Positions 17,609 through 25,719 of a DNA stretch of 38,792 nt are shown here, piece by piece. The translations under genes and the position numbers were made by a program. The stretch is from Phycisphaerae bacterium (lineage in GTDB: Bacteria > Planctomycetota > Phycisphaerae > Phycisphaerales > SM1A02). The stretch lies in contig PKCS01000065.1 in the NCBI GenBank assembly GCA_002862305.1, positions 1 through 38,792 of the forward strand, in the 5' to 3' direction. The notes under the pieces were generated by a model that had not been told where the DNA came from, did no database searches, and worked only from the letters and a program-made list of their open reading frames with translations. Positions within the stretch are counted from its first letter, which is position 1. Each line of letters starts with the position of its first letter.

Positions 17609-18258
17609 CCGAACCCCGGGTGCTCGAACGCGGTCCGGACTGGATGGTCCTCGAGAAACCCTCCGGTTGGCACACCCTCCTCGGGGGTGGCGATCCCTCC
17701 GGCTCGACCAGCGTCGAGGGGTGGCTGGCCGCGGCCCATCCGGAACTCGCCTCGCTCGAGGAGTGCGGACTCGTCCACCGGCTCGACCAGGGCACCAGCG
17801 GCTGCCTGCTGGTGGCGACCGAGCCCGCCTCGCTCCCGCGACTGCGTGCGGGGATGGCGGACGGGTCGATCCGCAAGCACTACCGTGCGCTGCTCCCGGC
17901 CGCCCCCCCGTGGGGTGGACGGTTCGAGCTCTGGTTCACCAGCCGCTACAAGCGTTCGAGCAAGGTGACGGTGCGCGAGCAGGGGGAACCCCGCCACCGC
18001 GGGGTCTGCACCTGGGAGCTGCTGGAACGCGGTCCGGACCGCGTGCTGGTCGACGTGGAACTGGTCGGTCCCGGCCGGCGCCACCAGATCCGCGCGGGCT
18101 TCGCCCACCTCGGGGTGCCGCTCCTGGGCGACGTGCTCTACGGCGGCGTGCCCTGGTCACTCGAGGCCCCGGCCCTGCACGCGTTCTCGCTGGAGCTTCC
18201 CGGGGCCCGGATCGAGAGTGCCGACCCGCTTCGCCAGCGGCTACGATCCCCCTCCTGA
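17605..18258 (+). CDS. RluA-family pseudouridine synthase
   Basis: 217 residues. The catalytic aspartate motif HRLDQGTSGCLLVA is complete (D61), preceded by WMVLEKPSGWHTL (the 'KPxG' strand) and followed by KHYRALL and the substrate-contact strand VELVGPGRRHQIRAGFAHLGVPLLGDVLYGG, here split as VELVGPGRRHQIRAGF and HLGVPLLGDVLYGG. These are hallmarks of RluA/RluC/RluD-type enzymes that isomerise uridine in rRNA or tRNA. No S4 domain is present, so it is the short type (RluA/TruC-like). Start is GTG 17605 in a GTGA overlap with the preceding gene. The exact RNA site cannot be told. Confidence 0.9.
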   Translation: MTEPRVLERGPDWMVLEKPSGWHTLLGGGDPSGSTSVEGWLAAAHPELASLEECGLVHRLDQGTSGCLLVATEPASLPRLRAGMADGSIRKHYRALLPAAPPWGGRFELWFTSRYKRSSKVTVREQGEPRHRGVCTWELLERGPDRVLVDVELVGPGRRHQIRAGFAHLGVPLLGDVLYGGVPWSLEAPALHAFSLELPGARIESADPLRQRLRSPS

Positions 18259-19607
18259 TGCCACGACCGAACCTCCATGGACGCGCGGTCGCCCTTCGGC
18301 GCGACCTGAGGCTGCTCACCGCCGACGGTGCGCTGTGGGCGATCATGACCGGCACCGGGGAGTGGCAGTTCGTGCTCTTCGCGCTCGCGATCGGGCTCTC
18401 CGAGGTGCGGGCGGGGCTGGTCAGCACCGTGCCGCTCTTCATCGGGGCGATCCTGCAGCTCCTGACCCCGTGGGGGGTCCGGCGCACCGGGTCGCTGAGG
18501 CGATGGGTGTGGGTGTGCGCGGGGCTCCAGGGGTGTTCCCTGCTGCCGCTCGCGATCGGGGCGATCCTCGCCTGGACCCTCGACCCCGGCTTCGGCGCCA
18601 CCCGGCCGGACCTCGCCACCGTGCTGCTCTTCGGCTGCATCATCGGCTACTGGGGCGCGGGCTTCGCGACCGCCCCGCCCTGGCAGGCGTGGTTCACCTC
18701 GCTGGTCCCGGGTTCGATCCGCCCGACCTTCGTCGGGGCGCGCGACCGGTTCGTCCAGCTCGGGCTCGCCTGCGGGATCCTCGCGGGGCTGTTCCTCGAG
18801 TTCGGGGACCGCGGCGGCTGGCAGCTCCCGGCGTTCGCGGGGGTGTTCCTGGTCGCCTTCCTCGCGCGGGCGGGGTCCACCTGGTGCCTCGCCCGGCAGT
18901 CCGACGCCCCCGCGGCCCTGGCCACCGGGGTCCGTCCGCTCTCGCTCGCGGTGATCCGGAGCGACTTCGCGGACCGTCGCACCCGGCAGCTGCTGCTCTA
19001 CATGCTCGCGTTCCTGATGAGCGTGATGGTGGTGGGGCCCTACTTCGCGGTGTACATGCGCTCCGAACTGGAGTTCTCCTACCTCGAGATCACCACCGGC
19101 CTCTTCGTGATGATGTTCGTGAAGGCGCTGATCCTGCCCTTCGTGGGTCGGCTCGCCAAGCGGATCGGCCCGGGCCGGGTGCTCTGGATCGGGGCGGTGA
19201 TGGTGACCCCCGCGGCCGCGTTGTGGGCGGTCCACGACCAGTTCTGGTGGATCATCCTGGTGCAGGTCTACGCCGCCTGCGGCTGGGCGTGCTGGGAGAC
19301 CGCGACCTTCCTCCTGATCTTCGACACCATCCCCGCGGAACGGCGGACCACCGCCCTGACCGTCTACCAGTTCGCCCGCTCCTCCGCGTTCCTGGTGGGG
19401 TCGTTCCTCGGCGCCCTGGTCCTCGAGGGCTTCGGGGTGGGCCCGACCGGCTACGTGGCGCTGTTCGTGCTCAGCAGCCTGATGCGGGGGATGACCCTCT
19501 TCATGCTCTCGGTGCTCGAACCCACCGGACTGCGCCTGCGCCATCGCGCGGGACGCACCGTGTCCCGCGTGATGAGCTTCCTGCCCGGCAGCACCCTGCC
19601 CGACTGA
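18258..19607 (+). CDS. MFS transporter
   Basis: 449 residues, about 12 helices. It begins MPRPNLHGRAVALRRDLR and the first helix region reads LWAIMTGTGEWQFVLFALAIG. MFS-like turns are GVRRTGSLRRWV between helices 2 and 3 and VGRLAKRIGPGRVLWIG in the second half. The stop of the pseudouridine synthase and this ATG share one base (TGATG, 18256-18260). Not clearly AmpG-like or a drug efflux pump; the substrate is unknown. It ends 7 bases from the convergent end of the secreted-protein array. Confidence 0.83.
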   Translation: MPRPNLHGRAVALRRDLRLLTADGALWAIMTGTGEWQFVLFALAIGLSEVRAGLVSTVPLFIGAILQLLTPWGVRRTGSLRRWVWVCAGLQGCSLLPLAIGAILAWTLDPGFGATRPDLATVLLFGCIIGYWGAGFATAPPWQAWFTSLVPGSIRPTFVGARDRFVQLGLACGILAGLFLEFGDRGGWQLPAFAGVFLVAFLARAGSTWCLARQSDAPAALATGVRPLSLAVIRSDFADRRTRQLLLYMLAFLMSVMVVGPYFAVYMRSELEFSYLEITTGLFVMMFVKALILPFVGRLAKRIGPGRVLWIGAVMVTPAAALWAVHDQFWWIILVQVYAACGWACWETATFLLIFDTIPAERRTTALTVYQFARSSAFLVGSFLGALVLEGFGVGPTGYVALFVLSSLMRGMTLFMLSVLEPTGLRLRHRAGRTVSRVMSFLPGSTLPD

Positions 19608-19614
19608 GTGGACC

Positions 19615-19691
19615 TCAGCCGGCTCGCCGCCGCCGGAACCCGCCGAGTCCGCCCGCCAGCAGCGCGAGGGTCGCGGGGGCGGGGATGGTGA
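19615..19691 (-). repeat. array 3' repeat, copy A (77 bp)
   Basis: Codes for the PAP-CTERM tail. Identical by eye to copy C over all 77 bases, including third-codon positions, which indicates recent duplication or gene conversion. Confidence 0.85.
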
Positions 19692-20250
19692 GGCTTGCGG
19701 ATCCCTCGAGTGGACCGATGGTCGTCCAGTTCTCCCACCCGGGCTCGAAGCCCTGGATGAAATCGAGGATGTTTGCCATCCCATCCTGGTTGAGGTCGGT
19801 CTCGAAGGCCGCCCGGAAGTTCCCGATCGTCAACGCGGACTCCCCGGAGGAGGGATCGGGAAGGACGAACGACAGGTTGGCCAGGGTCTGCCAGCTGGAC
19901 GTCGCCTCGAAGGCGTCCTCGTCGGCCAGGGCCGCGAAGCCGATGGTCGTGACCACGGAACCGTCGGTTTCCACCTGATTGGCCATGAGGTACCCACCAT
20001 CGCCGATGTCGCCGTACCCGACGTCACTGGTCGCCAGCGGCGTCCCCGAAATCGACGCATCGAACCACAGGTACGAGATGCCGGGCATCGGTTCGCTGGC
20101 TTGCACCTGAAGGTCGACGGACCAGGTGTCGCCTTCGGTCTGGGCGAGGTTCGTGAGCTGGAACTGGAACTCGGCCTGGCTGGTGCCGGCGCAGAACATC
20201 GCCAGGGAGGCGGCGAGACAGATGGGGGTGGTCCGGTGCATGGGAATCAT
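19615..20250 (-). CDS. secreted PEP-CTERM-like protein with dockerin-like repeat (array copy A)
   Basis: 211 residues. Signal peptide MIPMHRTTPICLAASLAMFCAGTSQA. The body has GDTWSVDLQVQASEPMPG and FDASISG, reminiscent of the 'FSVDVQV' start of the other array proteins. Near residue 160 is DLNQDGMANILDF, which matches one Ca-binding dockerin-type repeat (D-x-N-x-D-G-x-x-N-I-x-D). It ends with the sorting-signal-like tail IPAPAT, a Leu/Ala/Gly helix and FRRRRAG; canonical PEP-CTERM has VPEP, here PAP. Such tails are cut by exosortases; none is encoded here. It differs from copies B-F in leader and core but shares the identical 77-base 3' end with copy C. Two ATGs nine bases apart (20250, 20241) are possible starts. 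Confidence 0.85.
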   Translation of the reverse strand: MIPMHRTTPICLAASLAMFCAGTSQAEFQFQLTNLAQTEGDTWSVDLQVQASEPMPGISYLWFDASISGTPLATSDVGYGDIGDGGYLMANQVETDGSVVTTIGFAALADEDAFEATSSWQTLANLSFVLPDPSSGESALTIGNFRAAFETDLNQDGMANILDFIQGFEPGWENWTTIGPLEGSASLTIPAPATLALLAGGLGGFRRRRAG

Positions 20251-20310
20251 CTCTTTCGGTTCGTGTGTCGTCGGGTTGCCGTCACGGGCTCGCGGCGGGT
20301 GGAGGATTGA

Positions 20311-20340
20311 CCCGCATCCCCTCCGTGGCGGGGAGGCGGG
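20311..20340. terminator. hairpin between array copies B and A
   Basis: CCCGCATCCCC (20311-20321) pairs with GGGGAGGCGGG (20330-20340) with one mismatch and an 8-base loop. It lies about 20 bases after the copy B stop on the minus strand. Without a U-tract, it may be a terminator that separates copy A from the rest of the array. Confidence 0.5.
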
Positions 20341-20361
20341 TGGGTGCGTCCAGCGCAGGGG

Positions 20362-20438
20362 TCACCCGGCTCGCCGCCGCCGGAACCCGCCGAGTCCACC
20401 CGCCAGAAGCGCGAGGGTCGCGGGGGCGGGGATGGTGA
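20362..20438 (-). repeat. array 3' repeat, copy B
   Basis: Three differences by eye from the A/C sequence, in the 77 bases that code for the sorting tail. Confidence 0.85.
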
Positions 20439-20943
20439 AGGTGTAGGAGTCCTCCTGGACCGAGAGTGGATTGCCAAAAAAATTCGTCATCAGGATTTCG
20501 CTGAGCGTGATCGACAGCGGACCACTGAACTCGGTGATCTCGAGGTTCATCCGGAACAGCCCGACGGGTTCCACCGTGGGTACGATGCCAGAATTACCAA
20601 ATGCATCGATCCCTGCCAGCTCCGATTCACCGTATGTGAAGGGCCACGACATCAAGGGGTCCAGCCGCTCGATCGACTGCAACGCGAGGCCGTCCAGGGC
20701 GTAGTCCATCTGGAATCCCGCGATCCACAGGCTGGGATCCGATGGGATGTACCCCGCGGTTTCCGGATTGGCCGTCACCTGGATGTCCACCGAGAAGGTG
20801 TTGTCACCGAGTTCGACGGACGTCAGGTTCCCGAACTGGAGGTTGTAGTTGGAGAGCTGGGCGACGCCACCCGCGTGCGCGAGGGACGCCCCGCCGCAGG
20901 TGAGCAGGAGCACGGAGAACGACAGGGCTGCACGGCGATGCAT
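20362..20943 (-). CDS. secreted PEP-CTERM-like array protein (copy B)
   Basis: 193 residues. Signal peptide MHRRAALSFSVLLLTCGGASLAHA, then NLQFGNLTSVELGDNTFSVD, WIAGFQMDYALDGLALQSIE and VGLFRMNLEITEFSGPLS, ending in the shared PAP-CTERM tail. The layout GDxTFSVDVQV ... GFQMDxxLDGLxLxSI ... LFRMNLEI ... suggests an all-beta sandwich, perhaps cohesin-like; this is inference. ATG 20943 is the start because the same position is forced in copy E. The 5' half contains a seven-T tract in the coding strand (20476-20482), unusual in this GC-rich region. Located between copies A and C; a good candidate promoter lies just upstream. Confidence 0.85.
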   Translation of the reverse strand: MHRRAALSFSVLLLTCGGASLAHAGGVAQLSNYNLQFGNLTSVELGDNTFSVDIQVTANPETAGYIPSDPSLWIAGFQMDYALDGLALQSIERLDPLMSWPFTYGESELAGIDAFGNSGIVPTVEPVGLFRMNLEITEFSGPLSITLSEILMTNFFGNPLSVQEDSYTFTIPAPATLALLAGGLGGFRRRRAG

Positions 20944-20979
20944 GGGTCGGTTCGCTTTCTCCCTTTTCCGAGGTGTGTG
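20941..20979 (-). repeat. array leader repeat, copy B
   Basis: 39 bases ending at the start codon, identical to copy F. The mRNA strand carries CGGAAAAGGGAG, then AAAGCGAACCGACCC before ATG; the only SD-like GGGAG is 15 bases from the start, much further than usual. Confidence 0.8.
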
Positions 20980-20987
20980 TTCGGAAG

Positions 20988-21016
20988 AAGCTATCTGCCC
21001 TGCCTGGTCGAAGCAA
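20988..21016 (-). promoter_or_regulatory. candidate sigma-70 promoter for array copy B
   Basis: On the minus strand TTGCTT (21016-21011), a 17-base spacer and TAGCTT (20993-20988). The predicted transcript would start at about 20981, the upstream edge of the repeated leader. Confidence 0.45.
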
Positions 21017-21047
21017 GGACGAATCCCGGGATTGCCGCGCACGGGCT

Positions 21048-21124
21048 TCAGCCGGCTCGCCGCCGCCGGAACCCGCCGAGTCCGCCCGCCAGCAGCGCGA
21101 GGGTCGCGGGGGCGGGGATGGTGA
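21048..21124 (-). repeat. array 3' repeat, copy C
   Basis: Same 77 bases as copy A; taken as the reference for counting differences in the other copies. Confidence 0.85.
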
Positions 21125-21599
21125 GGGTGTAGGACTCCTGTACCGGCACCAGCCAGTCCTCGTCGTAGTTCGTCACCAGGAGGTCGCTGAGCGTGAGCGA
21201 GGCGGGGCGAGTGGAGTCGGTGACCGCGAGGTTCATCCTGAACAGCCCGACCGGTGCCGGCGCAGCCACGATGGGGGAACTGCCTGCCAGATCGAAGCTG
21301 AGCAGGGTGGCGTCACCATGGCCGGTGGACCACAGGGCTCCGGTCCACAGCCAGTCGATCGACTGCAACTCGAGCCCGTCCAGGGCGAAGTCCATCTGGT
21401 ATCCCATGACCCCGATGCCGGGTTCAACCGTCATCTGGACGTCCACCGAGAAGGTGTCGTCGGCGGGATCCACCGCGGTCAGGTTCCCGAACTGGAGGTC
21501 GAAGTCGGCGAAGGCAGGGAGGTGGTCCGCGTGGACGAGGGACGTCCCGCTGGCGGCGAGCAGGAGCAGGGAGCACGACAGGGCGGTGCATCGGGTCAT
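21048..21599 (-). CDS. secreted PEP-CTERM-like array protein (copy C)
   Basis: 183 residues. Signal peptide MTRCTALSCSLLLLAASGTSLVHA, then FDLQFGNLTAVDPADDTFSVD, shown here as FDLQFGNLTAV and PADDTFSVDVQM, GYQMDFALDGLELQSID and VGLFRMNLAVTDSTRP, with the PAP-CTERM tail. It is one of the closest relatives of copies B and F in layout. The core between the signal and the tail differs strongly from its neighbours, while its 3' 77 bases equal copy A. The array leader precedes it with two changes; no clear -10/-35 pair is seen, so it may depend on read-through from upstream copies. Confidence 0.85.
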   Translation of the reverse strand: MTRCTALSCSLLLLAASGTSLVHADHLPAFADFDLQFGNLTAVDPADDTFSVDVQMTVEPGIGVMGYQMDFALDGLELQSIDWLWTGALWSTGHGDATLLSFDLAGSSPIVAAPAPVGLFRMNLAVTDSTRPASLTLSDLLVTNYDEDWLVPVQESYTLTIPAPATLALLAGGLGGFRRRRAG

Positions 21600-21637
21600 G
21601 GGTCGGTTCGCTTTCTCCCTTTTCCGTGGTGTGCGTG
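21597..21637 (-). repeat. array leader repeat, copy C
   Basis: Matches copies B and F except for two base changes near its upstream end (CCACGG instead of CCTCGG, and GCACAC). Confidence 0.75.
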
Positions 21638-21691
21638 TACGCGAGGTCCAGGCGGTACGAGCAGCCGGGCGGGGCGATTCCCGCGCCGGGA

Positions 21692-21768
21692 TCAGCCGGT
21701 CCGGCGCCGCCGGAACCCGCCGAGTCCGCCCGCCAGCAGCACGAGGGCCGCGGGGGCGGGGATGGTGA
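21692..21768 (-). repeat. array 3' repeat, copy D
   Basis: About five differences by eye from the A/C sequence; the most diverged 3' copy, ending FRRRRTG instead of FRRRRAG. Confidence 0.8.
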
Positions 21769-22258
21769 GGGCGTAGGCGTCCTGGTGGGTCGTGAAGTGG
21801 TCGCCGAGGGCGTTGACCAGGACGATCTCGTCGAGCGTGATCGACCAGGGGCCGCCGGACCCGGTGAGCTCGAGGTCCATCCTGAAGAGACCGACCCACG
21901 GCACGGGCAGGACGTAGTCCGTCGAGGACAGGTCCAGTCCCGTCACGGTCGAACCGACGTGCTGGGTCACCCACGGCGGGTCCTGCAGGGCGTCGATCGA
22001 CCGCAACTCGAGGCCCTCGAGGGCGACGTCCACCTGGTACCCCATGACCCACAGGTCGGGGCTGGTCGGCGCGATCTCGGCGTAGTCCGCCCGCACCGCC
22101 ACCCGGACGTCCACCGAGAAGGTGGTGTCGCCGGGTTCCACGGCGGTCAGGTTCCCGAACTGGAGTTCGAACGCCTCGGTGTGGTACCCCTGCGCGACGG
22201 ACACGCCACCGGTGGCGAGCAGGAGCACGGACAACGACAGGGCGGGACGTCGGGTCAT
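21692..22258 (-). CDS. secreted PEP-CTERM-like array protein (copy D)
   Basis: 188 residues. Signal peptide MTRRPALSLSVLLLATGGVSVAQG, then FELQFGNLTAVEPGDTTFSV, GYQVDVALEGLELRSID, VGLFRMDLELTGSGGPWS and ITLDEIVLVNALGDHF, ending in PAPAALVLL plus the basic FRRRRTG. It has the most GC-rich core and the most diverged leader, including a one-base length change, and its 3' repeat has about five changes. That length change would break a longer reading frame through the leader, which supports the ATG at 22258 as the start. Confidence 0.85.
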   Translation of the reverse strand: MTRRPALSLSVLLLATGGVSVAQGYHTEAFELQFGNLTAVEPGDTTFSVDVRVAVRADYAEIAPTSPDLWVMGYQVDVALEGLELRSIDALQDPPWVTQHVGSTVTGLDLSSTDYVLPVPWVGLFRMDLELTGSGGPWSITLDEIVLVNALGDHFTTHQDAYALTIPAPAALVLLAGGLGGFRRRRTG

Positions 22259-22295
22259 GGGTCGGTTCGCTCTCTTCCCGTTCCCGGGCGCGTGC
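22256..22295 (-). repeat. array leader repeat, copy D (diverged)
   Basis: The 16 bases next to the start codon are conserved; further upstream AAAAGGGAGAAAG is replaced by GAACGGGAAGAGAG, with one extra base. Confidence 0.65.
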
Positions 22296-22331
22296 ATGCA
22301 AGGAGGCACGGGGCGGGGACGATTCCCGGGT

Positions 22332-22345
22332 CCCCGTGCACGGGG
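22332..22345. terminator. palindromic hairpin next to stop of copy E
   Basis: CCCCGTGCACGGGG is a perfect 14-base palindrome directly adjoining the stop codon of copy E. The matching place in copy F (22985-22998) has CCCCG-CGCA-CGGGG. These probably fold as short 3'-end hairpins; no U-tract. Confidence 0.45.
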
Positions 22346-22422
22346 TCAGCCGGCTCGCCGCCGCCGGAACCCGCCGAGTCCACCCGCCAGCAGCACGAGG
22401 GTCGCGGGGGCGGGGATGGTGA
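22346..22422 (-). repeat. array 3' repeat, copy E
   Basis: Two differences by eye from the A/C sequence, although the core of this gene is the most diverged. Confidence 0.85.
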
Positions 22423-22897
22423 GGGAGTAGTCTTCGTTCGAGAAGGCGATGATGTCGAATCCATCGTCGTAGAAGAACGGTGCCCCGAGCGTGATCGAGG
22501 GGGCCACCGAGGTGGTCTCGTCCGCCGTGATGGCGACTTCCAGGGTGAACAGCCCGAGCGGTTCCGACTGCAGGACGATGGGAGCGCCCAGTGAGAACAG
22601 TCCGAGGACCCCCGTTCCGGACCCGTCGATCGCCTGCCACTCGGGAAGCAGTGTCGTGACCGAGACCAATTCGACCCCGCTGAAGGTGTACAGCATGTCG
22701 ACTGAACTGAACTCCAGTTCAAGGGCGTCGAGGTCGCCCGCGGTCCAGGTTGCCTGGACGTCCACCGAGTAGAGGTTCTGCTCAGGGGCGATCGAGGTCA
22801 GGTTCCCGAACTGGAGGTCGACCTCCGCGTGCGCGAGGGAGGCACCACCGCTGGCGATCAGGAGCAGGGCCAGCGACAGGGATGCACGTCCAGGCAT
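22346..22897 (-). CDS. secreted PEP-CTERM-like array protein (copy E)
   Basis: 183 residues. Signal peptide MPGRASLSLALLLIASGGASLAHA, then VDLQFGNLTSIAPEQNLYSV, ELEFSSVDMLYTFSGVELVS and LGLFTLEVAITADETTS, with the standard tail. The core is the most divergent of copies B-F (LFTLEVAI instead of LFRMNLEI; no GFQMD block). An in-frame TGA lies two codons before the ATG at 22897, so this start is certain, and it fixes the homologous start in the other copies. The leader is conserved with a few changes; a TTGCCC -35-like box sits in the same place as in B, but the -10 equivalent is CGCCTC, so the promoter looks decayed. Confidence 0.86.
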   Translation of the reverse strand: MPGRASLSLALLLIASGGASLAHAEVDLQFGNLTSIAPEQNLYSVDVQATWTAGDLDALELEFSSVDMLYTFSGVELVSVTTLLPEWQAIDGSGTGVLGLFSLGAPIVLQSEPLGLFTLEVAITADETTSVAPSITLGAPFFYDDGFDIIAFSNEDYSLTIPAPATLVLLAGGLGGFRRRRAG

Positions 22898-22933
22898 GGG
22901 TCATTCACTTTCTCCCTTTTCCGAGGAGTGTGT
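22895..22933 (-). repeat. array leader repeat, copy E
   Basis: Conserved AAAAGGGAGAAAG with changes close to the start (TGAATGACCC for CGAACCGACCC) that create a TGA in frame before the ATG. This shows that the leader is not coding. Confidence 0.75.
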
Positions 22934-22984
22934 CCGGTCGAGGCGCTCCGCGGGACCTGGCCGGGCAAGGCGGGATCCCGAGTT

Positions 22985-22998
22985 CCCCGCGCACGGGG
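22985..22998. terminator. hairpin next to stop of copy F
   Basis: CCCCG-CGCA-CGGGG directly adjoins the copy F stop codon, at the same place as the copy E palindrome. Confidence 0.4.
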
Positions 22999-23075
22999 TC
23001 AGCCGGCTCGCCGCCGCCGGAACCCGCCGAGTCCGCCCGCCAGCAGCGCGAGTCCCGCGGGGGCGGGGATGGCGA
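22999..23075 (-). repeat. array 3' repeat, copy F
   Basis: About four differences by eye; a nine-base insertion just upstream in the gene adds residues before IPAPAG. Confidence 0.8.
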
Positions 23076-23577
23076 TGCTGAGGCTGTAGGCCTCCTCGTT
23101 GGTCGGGAATGGAATCCCGAAGTGAGTGGAGATGAAAATCTCACTGAGCGTGATCGACCAGGGGCCGCTGGACTCGGTGATCTCGAGGTTCATCCTCAAC
23201 AGTCCGACCGGTTGTGCCGCGGGCAGGATCGGGTAGGCACCCGTCGTGTCGAATCCAGTCGCCGTTTCATCGGTCGACGAGGTCGCCCACGAGGGTCCGG
23301 GGGCCAGCGAATCGATCGACTGCAACGCAAGGCCGTTCAGTTCGACGTCCATCTCGAAGTTCGTGATCCAAAAACCCGGTGACCACATCACGTCGCCCGC
23401 GGTCACGGGGTCGGTGATCACCTGGACGTCCACCGAGAAGGTGCTGCCACCAGGTTCGATGGCGGTCGGGTCCCCGAACAGGAGGTCCAGTTTCCCGAGG
23501 TGGTCCGCGCTCGCGAGGGACGCGCCGCCAGCGGCGAGCAGGAACACGGACAACGACAGGGCTGCACGTCGATGCAT
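22999..23577 (-). CDS. secreted PEP-CTERM-like array protein (copy F, first of the array)
   Basis: 192 residues. Signal peptide MHRRAALSLSVFLLAAGGASLASA, then LDLLFGDPTAIEPGGSTFSV, WITNFEMDVELNGLALQSID and VGLLRMNLEITESSGPWS, ending IPAPAGLALLAGG and FRRRRAG. The signal peptide and leader are nearly the same as in copy B at the DNA level, so F and B are probably the most recent pair at the 5' end, while the cores differ. It is the first gene in transcription order and has the best promoter. It lies 175 bases downstream of nothing else on this strand: the carotenoid operon ends further upstream at 23753, also reading this way. Confidence 0.86.
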   Translation of the reverse strand: MHRRAALSLSVFLLAAGGASLASADHLGKLDLLFGDPTAIEPGGSTFSVDVQVITDPVTAGDVMWSPGFWITNFEMDVELNGLALQSIDSLAPGPSWATSSTDETATGFDTTGAYPILPAAQPVGLLRMNLEITESSGPWSITLSEIFISTHFGIPFPTNEEAYSLSIAIPAPAGLALLAGGLGGFRRRRAG

Positions 23578-23613
23578 GGGTCGGTTCGCTTTCTCCCTTT
23601 TCCGAGGTGTGTG
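23575..23613 (-). repeat. array leader repeat, copy F
   Basis: Identical over 39 bases to copy B. The predicted transcription start from the promoter at 23621-23649 falls at its upstream edge, so the leader is close to the whole 5' untranslated region. Confidence 0.8.
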
Positions 23614-23620
23614 TGTCCCC

Positions 23621-23649
23621 ACCCTAGGGCCTGCCGGCGGGCCCGACAA
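23621..23649 (-). promoter_or_regulatory. candidate sigma-70 promoter for the array (copy F)
   Basis: On the minus strand TTGTCG (23649-23644), a 17-base spacer and TAGGGT (23626-23621). The distance to the ATG gives a leader of about 37 bases. The same spacing as in copy B supports it. Confidence 0.5.
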
Positions 23650-23752
23650 GGGTGGAGGGTGGTCTTCGGGGGAATCGCCTGCGGTCCGTCCCCGGGGGGG
23701 CGATCCCGGGGACTACTCGGACCTCGAGGCCCCGGTCGCCCGGGGATCGCGC

Positions 23753-24904
23753 TCATCCACCCGAGGGTGAGGTGGTCCGCCCCCGCCAGCTGCGGGTGCC
23801 GCGGAGGTGCAGCCGCAGGCTCCACCACTGCATGACCGTGGTGGCCAGCACCGCGATCGGGTGCAGCGGTACCCCGATCGGCGCCTGCCGGTAGCGGACC
23901 GCCAGCACCGTCCGCAGTCCGAGCATCATCACCACCGAGGCGATCGAGATCGGGGTCGCCACCTCCAGCCAGGTGCCGGTGGCCAGGCACCACGCCAGCA
24001 CCCCGAACGGCAGCAGGTGCCCGACCAGGTGGATGACGGTGATCAGGAGGAGGATCCAGATCGAACCCAGTCCCTCGTAGCCGTTCTTGGCGAAGCCGCG
24101 GAAACTCTCCATGAACCCGTGGTACATCCGGCAGCGGCAGAGGTCGGTGCCGTCGACGAGGTCGCTCTGCCAGCCGGCGGTCCGGATCGATCGCGGCAGC
24201 TTGATCCCGTCATGCATCGAGTCCTTGAAGGCGGCGTGGCCACCGGACTCCGTCCAGGCCTCGCGGCGAGCGAAGAGGAACTGCCCGCAGCCCGCGGAGG
24301 CCGCGGGCTGGAGGGTGGTGCGCATCCCGCCCATCGGGAGGTAGCCCAGCAGCAGCACGTGGATCATGGGGACGAAGAGCGCCTCCCCGATCGAGCCGGT
24401 GAGTTCGTGCGGGAATGCCGAGAGCAGGCCGAGCCGCGGGCGGTCGCGGGTCTCCGAGAGGGTGCGCCGAAGCCAGCCTCGCTCGAAGCGCACGTCCGCG
24501 TCGGTGAAGAGCAGCCAGCTGCCCTCGGCGGCCTCGCCCATCCGCTGGCAGGCGTGCTGCTTCCCGTTCCACCCCTCGGGCAGCGGCCGGGTCCCGACCG
24601 CACGGACCCGGGAATCCTCCTCGCCCAGGCGGGCGAGGATCTCGGGGGTCTCGTCGGTGCTCTCGTCGTCGTAGACCAGGACCTCGATCCGCTCGTGGCC
24701 GCCGTCCAGCAGCGAGCGGACGCAGGCCTCGAGGTTCCCCGCCTCGTCGCGGGCGGGGATGCAGCAGCTCACCAGCGCCTCGGAGTCCGGGCAGTCGGCG
24801 GCGGGGGCGGCCCGCTTCAGCCGGCCGACGTTCACCAGCGCGATGGTGGTCGGGATCGCCACCATCGCGAGGCCGATGATCGAGAGGATCCCGATCGCGC
24901 TCAC
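23753..24904 (-). CDS. GT2 glycosyltransferase, probable carotenoid glycosylation (CrtQ-like)
   Basis: 383 residues, close to the ~375 of staphylococcal CrtQ. One N-terminal helix (AIGILSIIGLAMVAIPTTIA) precedes a GT-A domain: VSCCIPARDEAGNLEACV, VLVYDDESTDETPEIL, WNGKQHACQ and the metal-binding DAD at 135-137 (LLFTDADVRFERGW), then GCGQFLFARREAW. Two or three C-terminal helices follow (ILLLITVIHLVGHLLPFGVL and others). Start is GTG 24904, overlapping the acyltransferase stop (GTGA). In staphyloxanthin synthesis such an enzyme adds glucose to the carotenoid carboxyl group; this role is inferred from the neighbours. It is the last gene of the operon. Confidence 0.85.
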   Translation of the reverse strand: MSAIGILSIIGLAMVAIPTTIALVNVGRLKRAAPAADCPDSEALVSCCIPARDEAGNLEACVRSLLDGGHERIEVLVYDDESTDETPEILARLGEEDSRVRAVGTRPLPEGWNGKQHACQRMGEAAEGSWLLFTDADVRFERGWLRRTLSETRDRPRLGLLSAFPHELTGSIGEALFVPMIHVLLLGYLPMGGMRTTLQPAASAGCGQFLFARREAWTESGGHAAFKDSMHDGIKLPRSIRTAGWQSDLVDGTDLCRCRMYHGFMESFRGFAKNGYEGLGSIWILLLITVIHLVGHLLPFGVLAWCLATGTWLEVATPISIASVVMMLGLRTVLAVRYRQAPIGVPLHPIAVLATTVMQWWSLRLHLRGTRSWRGRTTSPSGG

Positions 24905-25719
24905 GTCCGCTGCTCCGTTCGATGGGCGACCTCGAGGTCGCCCCGCCGGCCACGGACCTTCAGCCAGAGGTCGTAGACGGGGTTGGTGCGGTTGGCGGCG
25001 GGGGGGACCAGTGGATCGAACCGGTCCTCGTCGCGGGTCCGGACCAGTTCGGCGAGGGCGTCGGTCTCGGCCTGCATCGATTCCTTGACCCGGCGGTGCC
25101 ATCGGGAGGTGGTCGCCCGCTCCGGTGGCTCGACGTGCCGGGCGTGGAGGCAGAGCTCGGGGCGGCTGTCCTTCCAGAAGGTGTACTCCATGAGAAAGGT
25201 CAGCACCCGGGCCTCGGGGTTCGAGACCGCGTTGGTCGCGATCCCCGGGCGGGTGCGGATCGGGTCCCGCACGTCGGTGAACCGACCCTGCGGCATGATC
25301 CAGAAGGCGACCCGGCGATGCTCGTGGAAGAGCCCGGTGATCCAGTCGTTCATCCGGGTCAGGGTCCCGGGGTCGTCGGGATCGATCCCGAAGATCCCGA
25401 GCTTCCGGAAGAAGCCGAACTTCACCAGCTGGGTGGAGTCCATCGGCGCGGTGAGCTGGTGGCGGGGAAGGAACCGCTCGTGGACCAGGATCCCCACCAG
25501 GGGGTCCCACCAGGAGACGTGGTTCATCGCGATGATCAGCGGGCCGTCCACGTCCTCGAGGCCTTCCAGCACCTCGCGGGTGCCGGGGGTCATCCAGACC
25601 GCGTGGAAGCCGCCGCGGATCTTCCTCCGAACCACGAACGAGAACAGGCGGAACACCCTCGGGCTGAACCGGGCCGGCAGGAAACCGGGGTGCTCCGCTC
25701 CCGAGGCTGCGTCCGTCAT
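24901..25719 (-). CDS. PlsC-like acyltransferase of the carotenoid operon
   Basis: 272 residues. The acyltransferase motif I is NHVSWWDP, with H67 and D72 of the HxxxxD pair, and IMPQGRFTD stands where PlsC enzymes have the EGTR block. There is no strong membrane helix; hydrophobic patches such as PLIIAMNHVSWW and RVFRLFSFVV suggest membrane association. In the operon it most likely acylates the carotenoid or its sugar, the job of CrtO in Staphylococcus; CrtO is a different, shorter protein family, so this would be a non-homologous replacement. It could instead act in glycerolipid synthesis. ATGA overlaps with the desaturase stop before it (25716-25719) and the GT start after it. Confidence 0.83.
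   Translation of the reverse strand: MTDAASGAEHPGFLPARFSPRVFRLFSFVVRRKIRGGFHAVWMTPGTREVLEGLEDVDGPLIIAMNHVSWWDPLVGILVHERFLPRHQLTAPMDSTQLVKFGFFRKLGIFGIDPDDPGTLTRMNDWITGLFHEHRRVAFWIMPQGRFTDVRDPIRTRPGIATNAVSNPEARVLTFLMEYTFWKDSRPELCLHARHVEPPERATTSRWHRRVKESMQAETDALAELVRTRDEDRFDPLVPPAANRTNPVYDLWLKVRGRRGDLEVAHRTEQRT

Follow-up and report, generated by a model that had tools for sequence, protein, structure and literature searches.

Proteins of the PEP-CTERM/exosortase (EpsH) type end in a short C-terminal tail with a PxP motif, a hydrophobic helix and a basic cluster, and many of them are encoded per genome together with exosortases. In the 2006 description, tails of one species are reported to resemble each other more than those of different species, which was read as the expansion of a modular domain (PMC1569441). 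Gene ends evolving in concert are described in Helicobacter pylori, where the paralogs homA and homB within a strain share a near-identical 3′ segment by concerted evolution beside a more divergent middle (PMC2795765), and where conversion between the bab loci (babA and babB) concerns their 5′ and 3′ regions (PMC4552749). There, the 3′ segment analysed is about 1 kb long, two or more loci and phase variation are involved, and many strains were compared. Here we analyse a tandem array of six genes, A to F, each ending in a PAP-CTERM tail, on contig PKCS01000065.1 of a marine Phycisphaerae bacterium. The window is this entire contig (C20; 38,792 bases), which belongs to a 2.67 Mb draft genome with 103 contigs (G000 in the following).

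The array resembles PEP-CTERM/exosortase systems in its tails and in the presence of exosortase genes, with PAP in place of PEP, and it resembles homA and homB in combining a homogenised 3′ segment with a divergent middle. It differs from the hom and bab systems in that the shared segment measures ~75 nt and is essentially the sorting tail, that six genes in tandem in one genome are concerned, and that no switch was found. Nucleotide-level copying of tails also goes beyond the observations cited above from the PEP-CTERM description. We consider it likely that the array is an old tandem family with diverged cores, in which the 3′ end encoding the sorting tail was homogenised by short gene conversion among neighbours.

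Near-identical tail DNA within the array

The six open reading frames (ORFs) form a head-to-tail series on the minus strand, as initially annotated, are flanked by genes for an MFS transporter and a glycosyltransferase of family 2, and are transcribed in the order F, E, D, C, B, A. All six are complete, 183–208 amino acids long and spaced by 87–120 nt. Their N-termini are hydrophobic and signal-peptide-like (judged without a signal-peptide predictor), as had been proposed, and the common PAP-CTERM ending is found in every copy, all ORFs finishing in IPAPA.L.LLAGGLGGFRRRR.G. The DNA encoding this end had been said to differ by 0–5 bases over 77 nt; the actual range is 0–8 across the 15 pairs, with at most five differences in 11 pairs and 6–8 in four (EF, BF, DF, and BD). 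The identity claimed for the tails of A and C extends over 79 nt, stop codon included, and the remaining 14 of the 15 pairs carry 2–8 differences over the 77 nt. Used as a query against the genome, the tail DNA retrieved the six array copies at E-values of 4e-31 or better, followed by a next best match at 6.7e-5.

If unlinked genes conserved this tail DNA equally well, a general codon constraint would be indicated. A search of the genome with TIGR02595 yielded 26 matches, six in the array and 20 elsewhere. From the latter we compiled a set of 18 unlinked tails, 11 over the family cut-off and seven below it with a PxP...RRR end; L047 and L048, whose frame lacks this end, were excluded, and the contig-start fragment L045 was kept. 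At identical residues, the same codon occurs in 245 of 268 cases (0.914) among the array tails, in 480 of 1449 (0.331) among the unlinked tails, and in 236 of 968 between both sets. The share expected from codon usage, computed from the array genes and from those stretches that match the family, is 0.43–0.50 for the tails of B–F, 0.52–0.64 for the cores, and 0.38–0.43 for the unlinked tails. Compared with this expectation, the unlinked tails (0.331) and the tails of A and its ortholog A3 in a congener (0.35; see below) are at or below it, and the array tails (0.90–0.95) lie far above it. Tails are also not homogenised in the three other small PAP/PEP-CTERM clusters of the genome (C16, C10, and C29), where the closest pair shares 9 of 18 codons. 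Both the 18 tails and the genome-wide DNA search thus found the unlinked tails to be without this DNA. Because unlinked tails share 33% of synonymous codons, compared with 91% in the array tails, codon constraint is excluded as the reason for the near-identity within the array.

Uneven synonymous divergence along the genes

Among B–F, mean nucleotide identity is 93% in the tails, 77% in the leaders and 60% in the cores (52–67%). The initial description of the cores as only distantly similar hence does not apply to B–F, but it does to the core of A, which is far more remote. Synonymous divergence (dS) of B–F according to Nei-Gojobori is 0.11 in the tails, 0.27 in the leaders and 0.61 in the cores; column permutation on these values gave p = 1e-4 for core versus tail and p = 0.03 for the leader. 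Codon-bias-aware estimates over pooled pairs are 0.44 in the leader (column bootstrap 0.25–0.75), 0.86 in the first third of the core, core1 (0.39–1.52), 2.0 in core2 (lower limit 1.1, upper limit saturated), 2.5 in core3 (lower limit 1.6, upper limit saturated) and 0.19 in the tail (0.06–0.34). Uniform synonymous divergence, which would have spoken against recombination at the ends, is therefore not what we observed, core dS being far above tail dS. Exchange anchored at both ends would fit this profile, in which dS climbs from the 5′ end into the core and falls abruptly at the tail. The tail alignment, moreover, rejects the core tree rescaled by a single factor (branch-length test, twice the log-likelihood difference 133, 10 degrees of freedom). 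Recombination at the gene ends, as initially suggested, is hence indicated strongly for the tail, by uneven dS, array-specific DNA and an abrupt switch of ancestry in A relative to its ortholog, and weakly for the leader.

Gene A, its ortholog and a remnant in a congener

The congener 'Planctomycetes bacterium TMED75' (record NHEC01000056; G003) has a syntenic site with the glycosyltransferase gene, a remnant, A3 as the ortholog of A, and the MFS gene. Between A and A3, the codon-bias-aware dS is 1.02 in the core and saturated in the tail, whereas between A and B–F leader and core are saturated and the tail dS is 0.10. Same-codon counts of A and A3 are 69/87 in leader plus core (63/80 without a tuf-like patch of A3) and 7/20 in the tail (Fisher p = 2e-4 for 69/87 against 7/20). 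Within a limited segment, A thus resembles its paralogs more than its ortholog, and its core shows the reverse, a pattern characteristic of gene conversion. The upstream limit of the copied tract in A falls within the 5′-most 7 nt of the 79-nt run, A matching A3 immediately upstream, and downstream of the stop codon both A and A3 enter the MFS gene within about 7–13 nt. In this one gene, the non-reciprocal patch is consequently flanked on both sides by the recipient's own sequence, as is also expected of gene conversion.

The G003 remnant (L108:14882–14990; G003:C114) consists of a B-type leader joined a few codons past the start to an out-of-frame B-type tail, the core being lost. By eye, a 3-base overlap (CGA) is possible at the junction. 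Compared with the six G000 tails, the remnant tail has differences at 11–15 of 66 nt and a dS of 0.87–1.29; compared with the A3 tail, 23 of 66 nt differ and dS is saturated. Because its dS to the G000 tails is about that of the A–A3 core (1.02), the distinction between A-type and B-type tails probably predates the split of the two species, A of G000 now carrying the B-type.

A3 holds an in-frame VNVGTIGHIDHGKTTLT at L108:15209–15261 (G003:C114). Over its 53 nt, this patch is identical at 51 positions to the beginning of the EF-Tu (tuf) gene in G003 itself, with one mismatch and one N, which may point either to short-patch copying or to a chimeric assembly.

Evolution of the cores

The Nei-Gojobori ratio of nonsynonymous to synonymous divergence (dN/dS, omega) in the core is about 0.9 for B–F and 0.97 for A–A3, compared with 0.11–0.54 in three flanking genes (G000 versus G003). 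The accelerated cores suggested by these values were removed for B–F by codon-bias-aware pairwise, tree, and pooled estimates. The pooled core dN/dS of B–F is 0.29 (all codons present per pair) and the IQ-TREE core omega is 0.29, as against 0.34 for the neighbouring glycosyltransferase. Pairwise omega ranges from 0.16 to 0.47 in the seven B–F pairs off the boundary; the pairs B–E, C–E and E–F are at the boundary (dS above 90) and uninformative for dS. The pairwise and tree estimates refer to 123 gap-free core codons in B–F, indel-rich loops excluded. Omega = 1 was rejected in all 10 B–F pairs (likelihood-ratio statistic 5.2 or more) and in A–A3. The omega of A–A3 (0.40–0.43) is slightly above that of the neighbouring glycosyltransferase (0.31–0.34), and that of B–F is not. 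The high simple dN/dS is thus largely a codon-bias effect, and the supposed diversification of the exposed part is not borne out. Since core omega is ordinary and the pooled core dS of B–F (1.8) exceeds the core dS of A–A3 (1.0), the cores are old, not fast-evolving.

Exchange within the cores was not significant after correction in a run-length test of 10 pairs (best raw p = 0.0098). We saw no silent cassette, expression site or switch, and no donors elsewhere in the genome in the core search; a scan of the genome contigs with the core alignment gave 200 pattern matches, none of which was confirmed.

Leaders, post-stop stretches and flanking sequence

The leader ascribed to B–F is indeed common to them, as five copies of a 110-nt block with 67–100% identity to the reference copy (Table 1). 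With a composite of the window leaders as query, the five array copies were found in the genome at E-values of 5e-19 or better, the next best match being at 0.72. A 5′ leader motif built from the array, G003 and the single-copy homologue of G010 (another genus) lies at window positions 20941–20963, 21597–21619, 22256–22278, and 23575–23597 on the minus strand; in a scan of genome contigs, its matches besides the array were limited to the G003 and G010 records used in building it. The leader stretch is similar in G010 although the signal-peptide codons there are nearly saturated, and it may represent a conserved element of translation or regulation.

GC-rich hairpins, which had been reported after the stop codons, could not be corroborated: in none of the six stretches after the stop codons was folding clearly superior to that of dinucleotide shuffles (z from +0.82 to −1.67), and the predicted structures are unlike one another among the six genes. 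Neither a sigma-70-like promoter nor a terminator-like site was found in window positions 19400–24000. The GC content at third codon positions is 0.87 in the array genes (19615–23577, minus strand), compared with 0.95–0.96 in three flanking coding stretches.

Table 1 Features of the array, its flanks and the matching tuf segment of the congener. Positions refer to the window unless another record is named.
Feature	Position	Strand	Details
MFS transporter, convergent flank	18183..19607	(+)	kept at the same site in G002 and G003 (partial in G003, contig end)
Gene A	19615..20241	(-)	208 amino acids; own leader and core (orthologous to A3 of G003), B-type tail; carries DLNQDGMANILD
Gene B	20362..20943	(-)	193 amino acids
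Gene C	21048..21599	(-)	183 amino acids; tail equals that of A over 79 nt
Gene D	21692..22258	(-)	188 amino acids
Gene E	22346..22897	(-)	183 amino acids; core most diverged among B–F
Gene F	22999..23577	(-)	192 amino acids; transcribed first; signal-like N-terminus, cohesin-fold core (predicted), PAP-CTERM tail
Glycosyltransferase family 2, upstream flank	23753..25510	(-)	kept at the same site in G002 and G003
Tail block of A (copied tract)	19615..19693	(-)	exact match to C over 79 nt
Tail block of B	20362..20438	(-)	77 nt
Tail block of C	21048..21126	(-)	79 nt
Tail block of D	21692..21768	(-)	77 nt
Tail block of E	22346..22422	(-)	77 nt
Tail block of F	22999..23070	(-)	codons IPAP to stop; preceded by two extra codons
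Leader block of B	20871..20980	(-)	reference copy, 110 nt
Leader block of C	21527..21636	(-)	83% to reference
Leader block of D	22186..22295	(-)	76% to reference
Leader block of E	22825..22934	(-)	67% to reference, ungapped register
Leader block of F	23505..23614	(-)	91% to reference
tuf match to the A3 patch	L122 (G003:C19:29295-29350)		in G003

Predicted proteins

In the TIGR02595 genome search, all six array tails scored over the 16-bit cut-off, F only with neighbours in frame; by hmmscan the result was borderline, with A, B, and C passing 16, E at 15.8, D at 12.5 and no hit for F. The same loose search gave matches in 12 of 14 control genomes, over the cut-off in two. Two EpsH-type exosortase genes (PF09721, both over the cut-off) are located at G000:C30:20020–20808 and C4:11995–12750.

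An AlphaFold2 model of F, based on eight alignment rows, reached a predicted local distance difference test score (pLDDT) of 72.7 and a predicted template modelling score of 0.68. With this model, Foldseek ranks 1–26 were all cohesins (best E-value 3.9e-6), and VIA-align returned mostly cohesins, with a best Z of 10.2, a root-mean-square deviation of 2.9 and 118 aligned residues; the first 20 rows include two of a pneumococcal adhesin. The predicted fold of F therefore resembles that of cellulosomal and non-cellulosomal cohesins, from which it differs in sequence: identity is 8–19% in the top 13 VIA-align rows, none of the six core sequences (B–F and G010) matched the Pfam cohesin profile at E-values up to 10, and the core profile gave a single match among PDB sequences (E-value 1.3). 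B–F are probably exosortase substrates with one cohesin-like domain, the fold being taken for all five from the model of F.

A structure model of A was too poor for use (pLDDT 44.5). A and A3 each hold one D.N.DG..[ND]..D motif that is absent from B–F, DLNQDGMANILD in A and DLNNDGSADIAD in A3. We take it to be a dockerin/EF-hand-like motif, for which Pfam gave no hit; the Pfam dockerin profile matched neither A nor A3. Together with the cohesin-like fold predicted for F, a cohesin–dockerin pair within one array is possible. Our literature search found no paper joining cohesin, PEP-CTERM and dockerin. In G010, the gene convergent with the single homologue (L024:3825–5525, minus strand) ends, by eye, in apparent planctomycete dockerin-like repeats.

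Distribution in related genomes

Of 400 genomes sampled from the order, two yielded members of the core family, G000 with five copies and G010 with one (record JAQWMQ010000016). Gene A was present in two of the 61 genomes searched, G000 and G003. With B as query, seven of the 61 genomes gave a match, which extended beyond the tail end only in G000 and G010, the other five matching in the tail or neighbourhood alone. The glycosyltransferase neighbourhoods of 11 of the 22 other genomes with a match were compared; the stretches of G020, G028, G031, and G033 end at a contig edge. Among these 11 neighbourhoods, array-type genes lie next to the glycosyltransferase gene only in G003, and the MFS gene is there only in G002 and G003. 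A TM2-domain gene occupies the gap between the flanking genes in G002. In two further congeners, G001 (54% complete) and G004 (75%), neither flanking gene had a match. Where visible, the contents of the site thus differ among three congeners.

Discussion

The best supported explanation of this locus is that a short 3′ tract was copied non-reciprocally between linked genes. In our proposal, the five genes B–F would form an old tandem family whose products, probably secreted, each have a signal peptide, one cohesin-like domain and a PAP/PEP-CTERM exosortase sorting tail, and A would be a more distant sixth member adjoining them. Short gene conversion among neighbours, which we infer over another patch-copying route, would have overwritten the ~75-nt 3′ end that codes for the sorting tail; for the 5′ leader, the case is less clear. 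The ends would then appear young, and the cores, too diverged for recombination, would retain the older divergence. The ancestral tail of A was most likely of another kind and gave way to a B-type tail once the lineages of G000 and G003 had separated, in a tract of about 70–80 nt. The likely outcome would be six proteins with different presumed binding domains but one and the same tail for the exosortase; their surface location and the usefulness of the tail uniformity we infer.

Several points weigh against this proposal. Homogenisation of the leader is weak, with a permutation p of 0.03 and an interval overlapping that of core1. The tails comprise 25 codons, so that intervals are wide, and the pooled pairs are non-independent. 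An approximately unbiased topology test on the tails gave p = 0.33, with A3 forming a single long branch. The key comparison is with one ortholog from one congener, and G000 and G003 are both draft assemblies. The polarity may also be the opposite, the tail of A3 and not that of A having been replaced; homogenisation within G000 is required whichever of the two changed. Tails differing at about one third of positions are, moreover, a poor substrate for RecA-dependent exchange. Because A3-type and B-type tails are of this kind (23/66 nt apart), the copying route may have been short-patch template switching instead of homologous exchange. Short-patch double illegitimate recombination, by which tens of bases are copied from elsewhere in a genome, would fit both the 70–80-nt tract of the tail and the tuf-like patch of 53 nt in A3; a literature search for this term found no paper. 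A wider version, in which patches of about 50–80 nt are copied between genes without long homology in this lineage, the tail of A and the tuf patch of A3 stem from one process, and a tag is kept uniform beside an old, diverse cohesin-like repertoire with which the dockerin-like motif of A might pair, is tentative and in our view unlikely.

A scenario without conversion, in which the genes arose by recent tandem duplication, their cores then came under fast diversifying selection and the tails are young and constrained, would agree with the Nei-Gojobori core dN/dS and with the omega of A–A3, which remains slightly over that of the glycosyltransferase in the better model. The contrast is gone for B–F, however, in the codon-bias-aware model, core dS far exceeds tail dS, which is incompatible with a single duplication date, and A shares the tail though it is not a recent duplicate. 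The unequal synonymous divergence along the genes largely refutes this scenario, which we hold to be very unlikely. The initial annotation had raised a surface-protein variation system, with the ends as recombination handles that shuffle or switch cores in antigenic or receptor variation. Different cores do lie between homologous ends and the G003 remnant documents the loss of a core at the locus, but all six ORFs are complete, each of B–F has the shared leader, neither a silent cassette nor an expression site was seen, exchange within cores was not significant, and core omega is ordinary. Such a system appears quite unlikely here.

The strongly conserved amino acids of the tail could point to selection on tail DNA or RNA, by codon or structure constraint, in place of recombination. 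Against this stand the 18 unlinked similar tails, which share codons at or below the level expected from codon usage, the G003 remnant tail with its divergence from the array tails, and the post-stop hairpins, which are no better than shuffles. Within the tails compared, such constraint is refuted for this genome and almost certainly not the explanation. The 103-contig draft and the A/C identity over 79 nt raise the question whether the six tails were merged by short-read assembly or read correction. The differences in 14 of the 15 tail pairs mean that the copies did not collapse to one consensus, and the tail of A is bordered upstream by sequence matching its ortholog and downstream, as in G003, by the MFS gene, which makes an artefact highly improbable.

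A literature search for work joining PEP-CTERM, tandem and gene conversion returned no paper, but the idea may already have been published. With regard to rates of evolution, the array illustrates that simple dN/dS counts in GC-rich genomes may mimic diversifying selection. With regard to sorting tails, the locus represents a bounded case at the nucleotide level, in which the tail alone was apparently copied between genes. The array tails are homogenised and the unlinked tails compared in the same genome are not, which suggests that uniformity of tails depends on linkage and not on selection acting on them.

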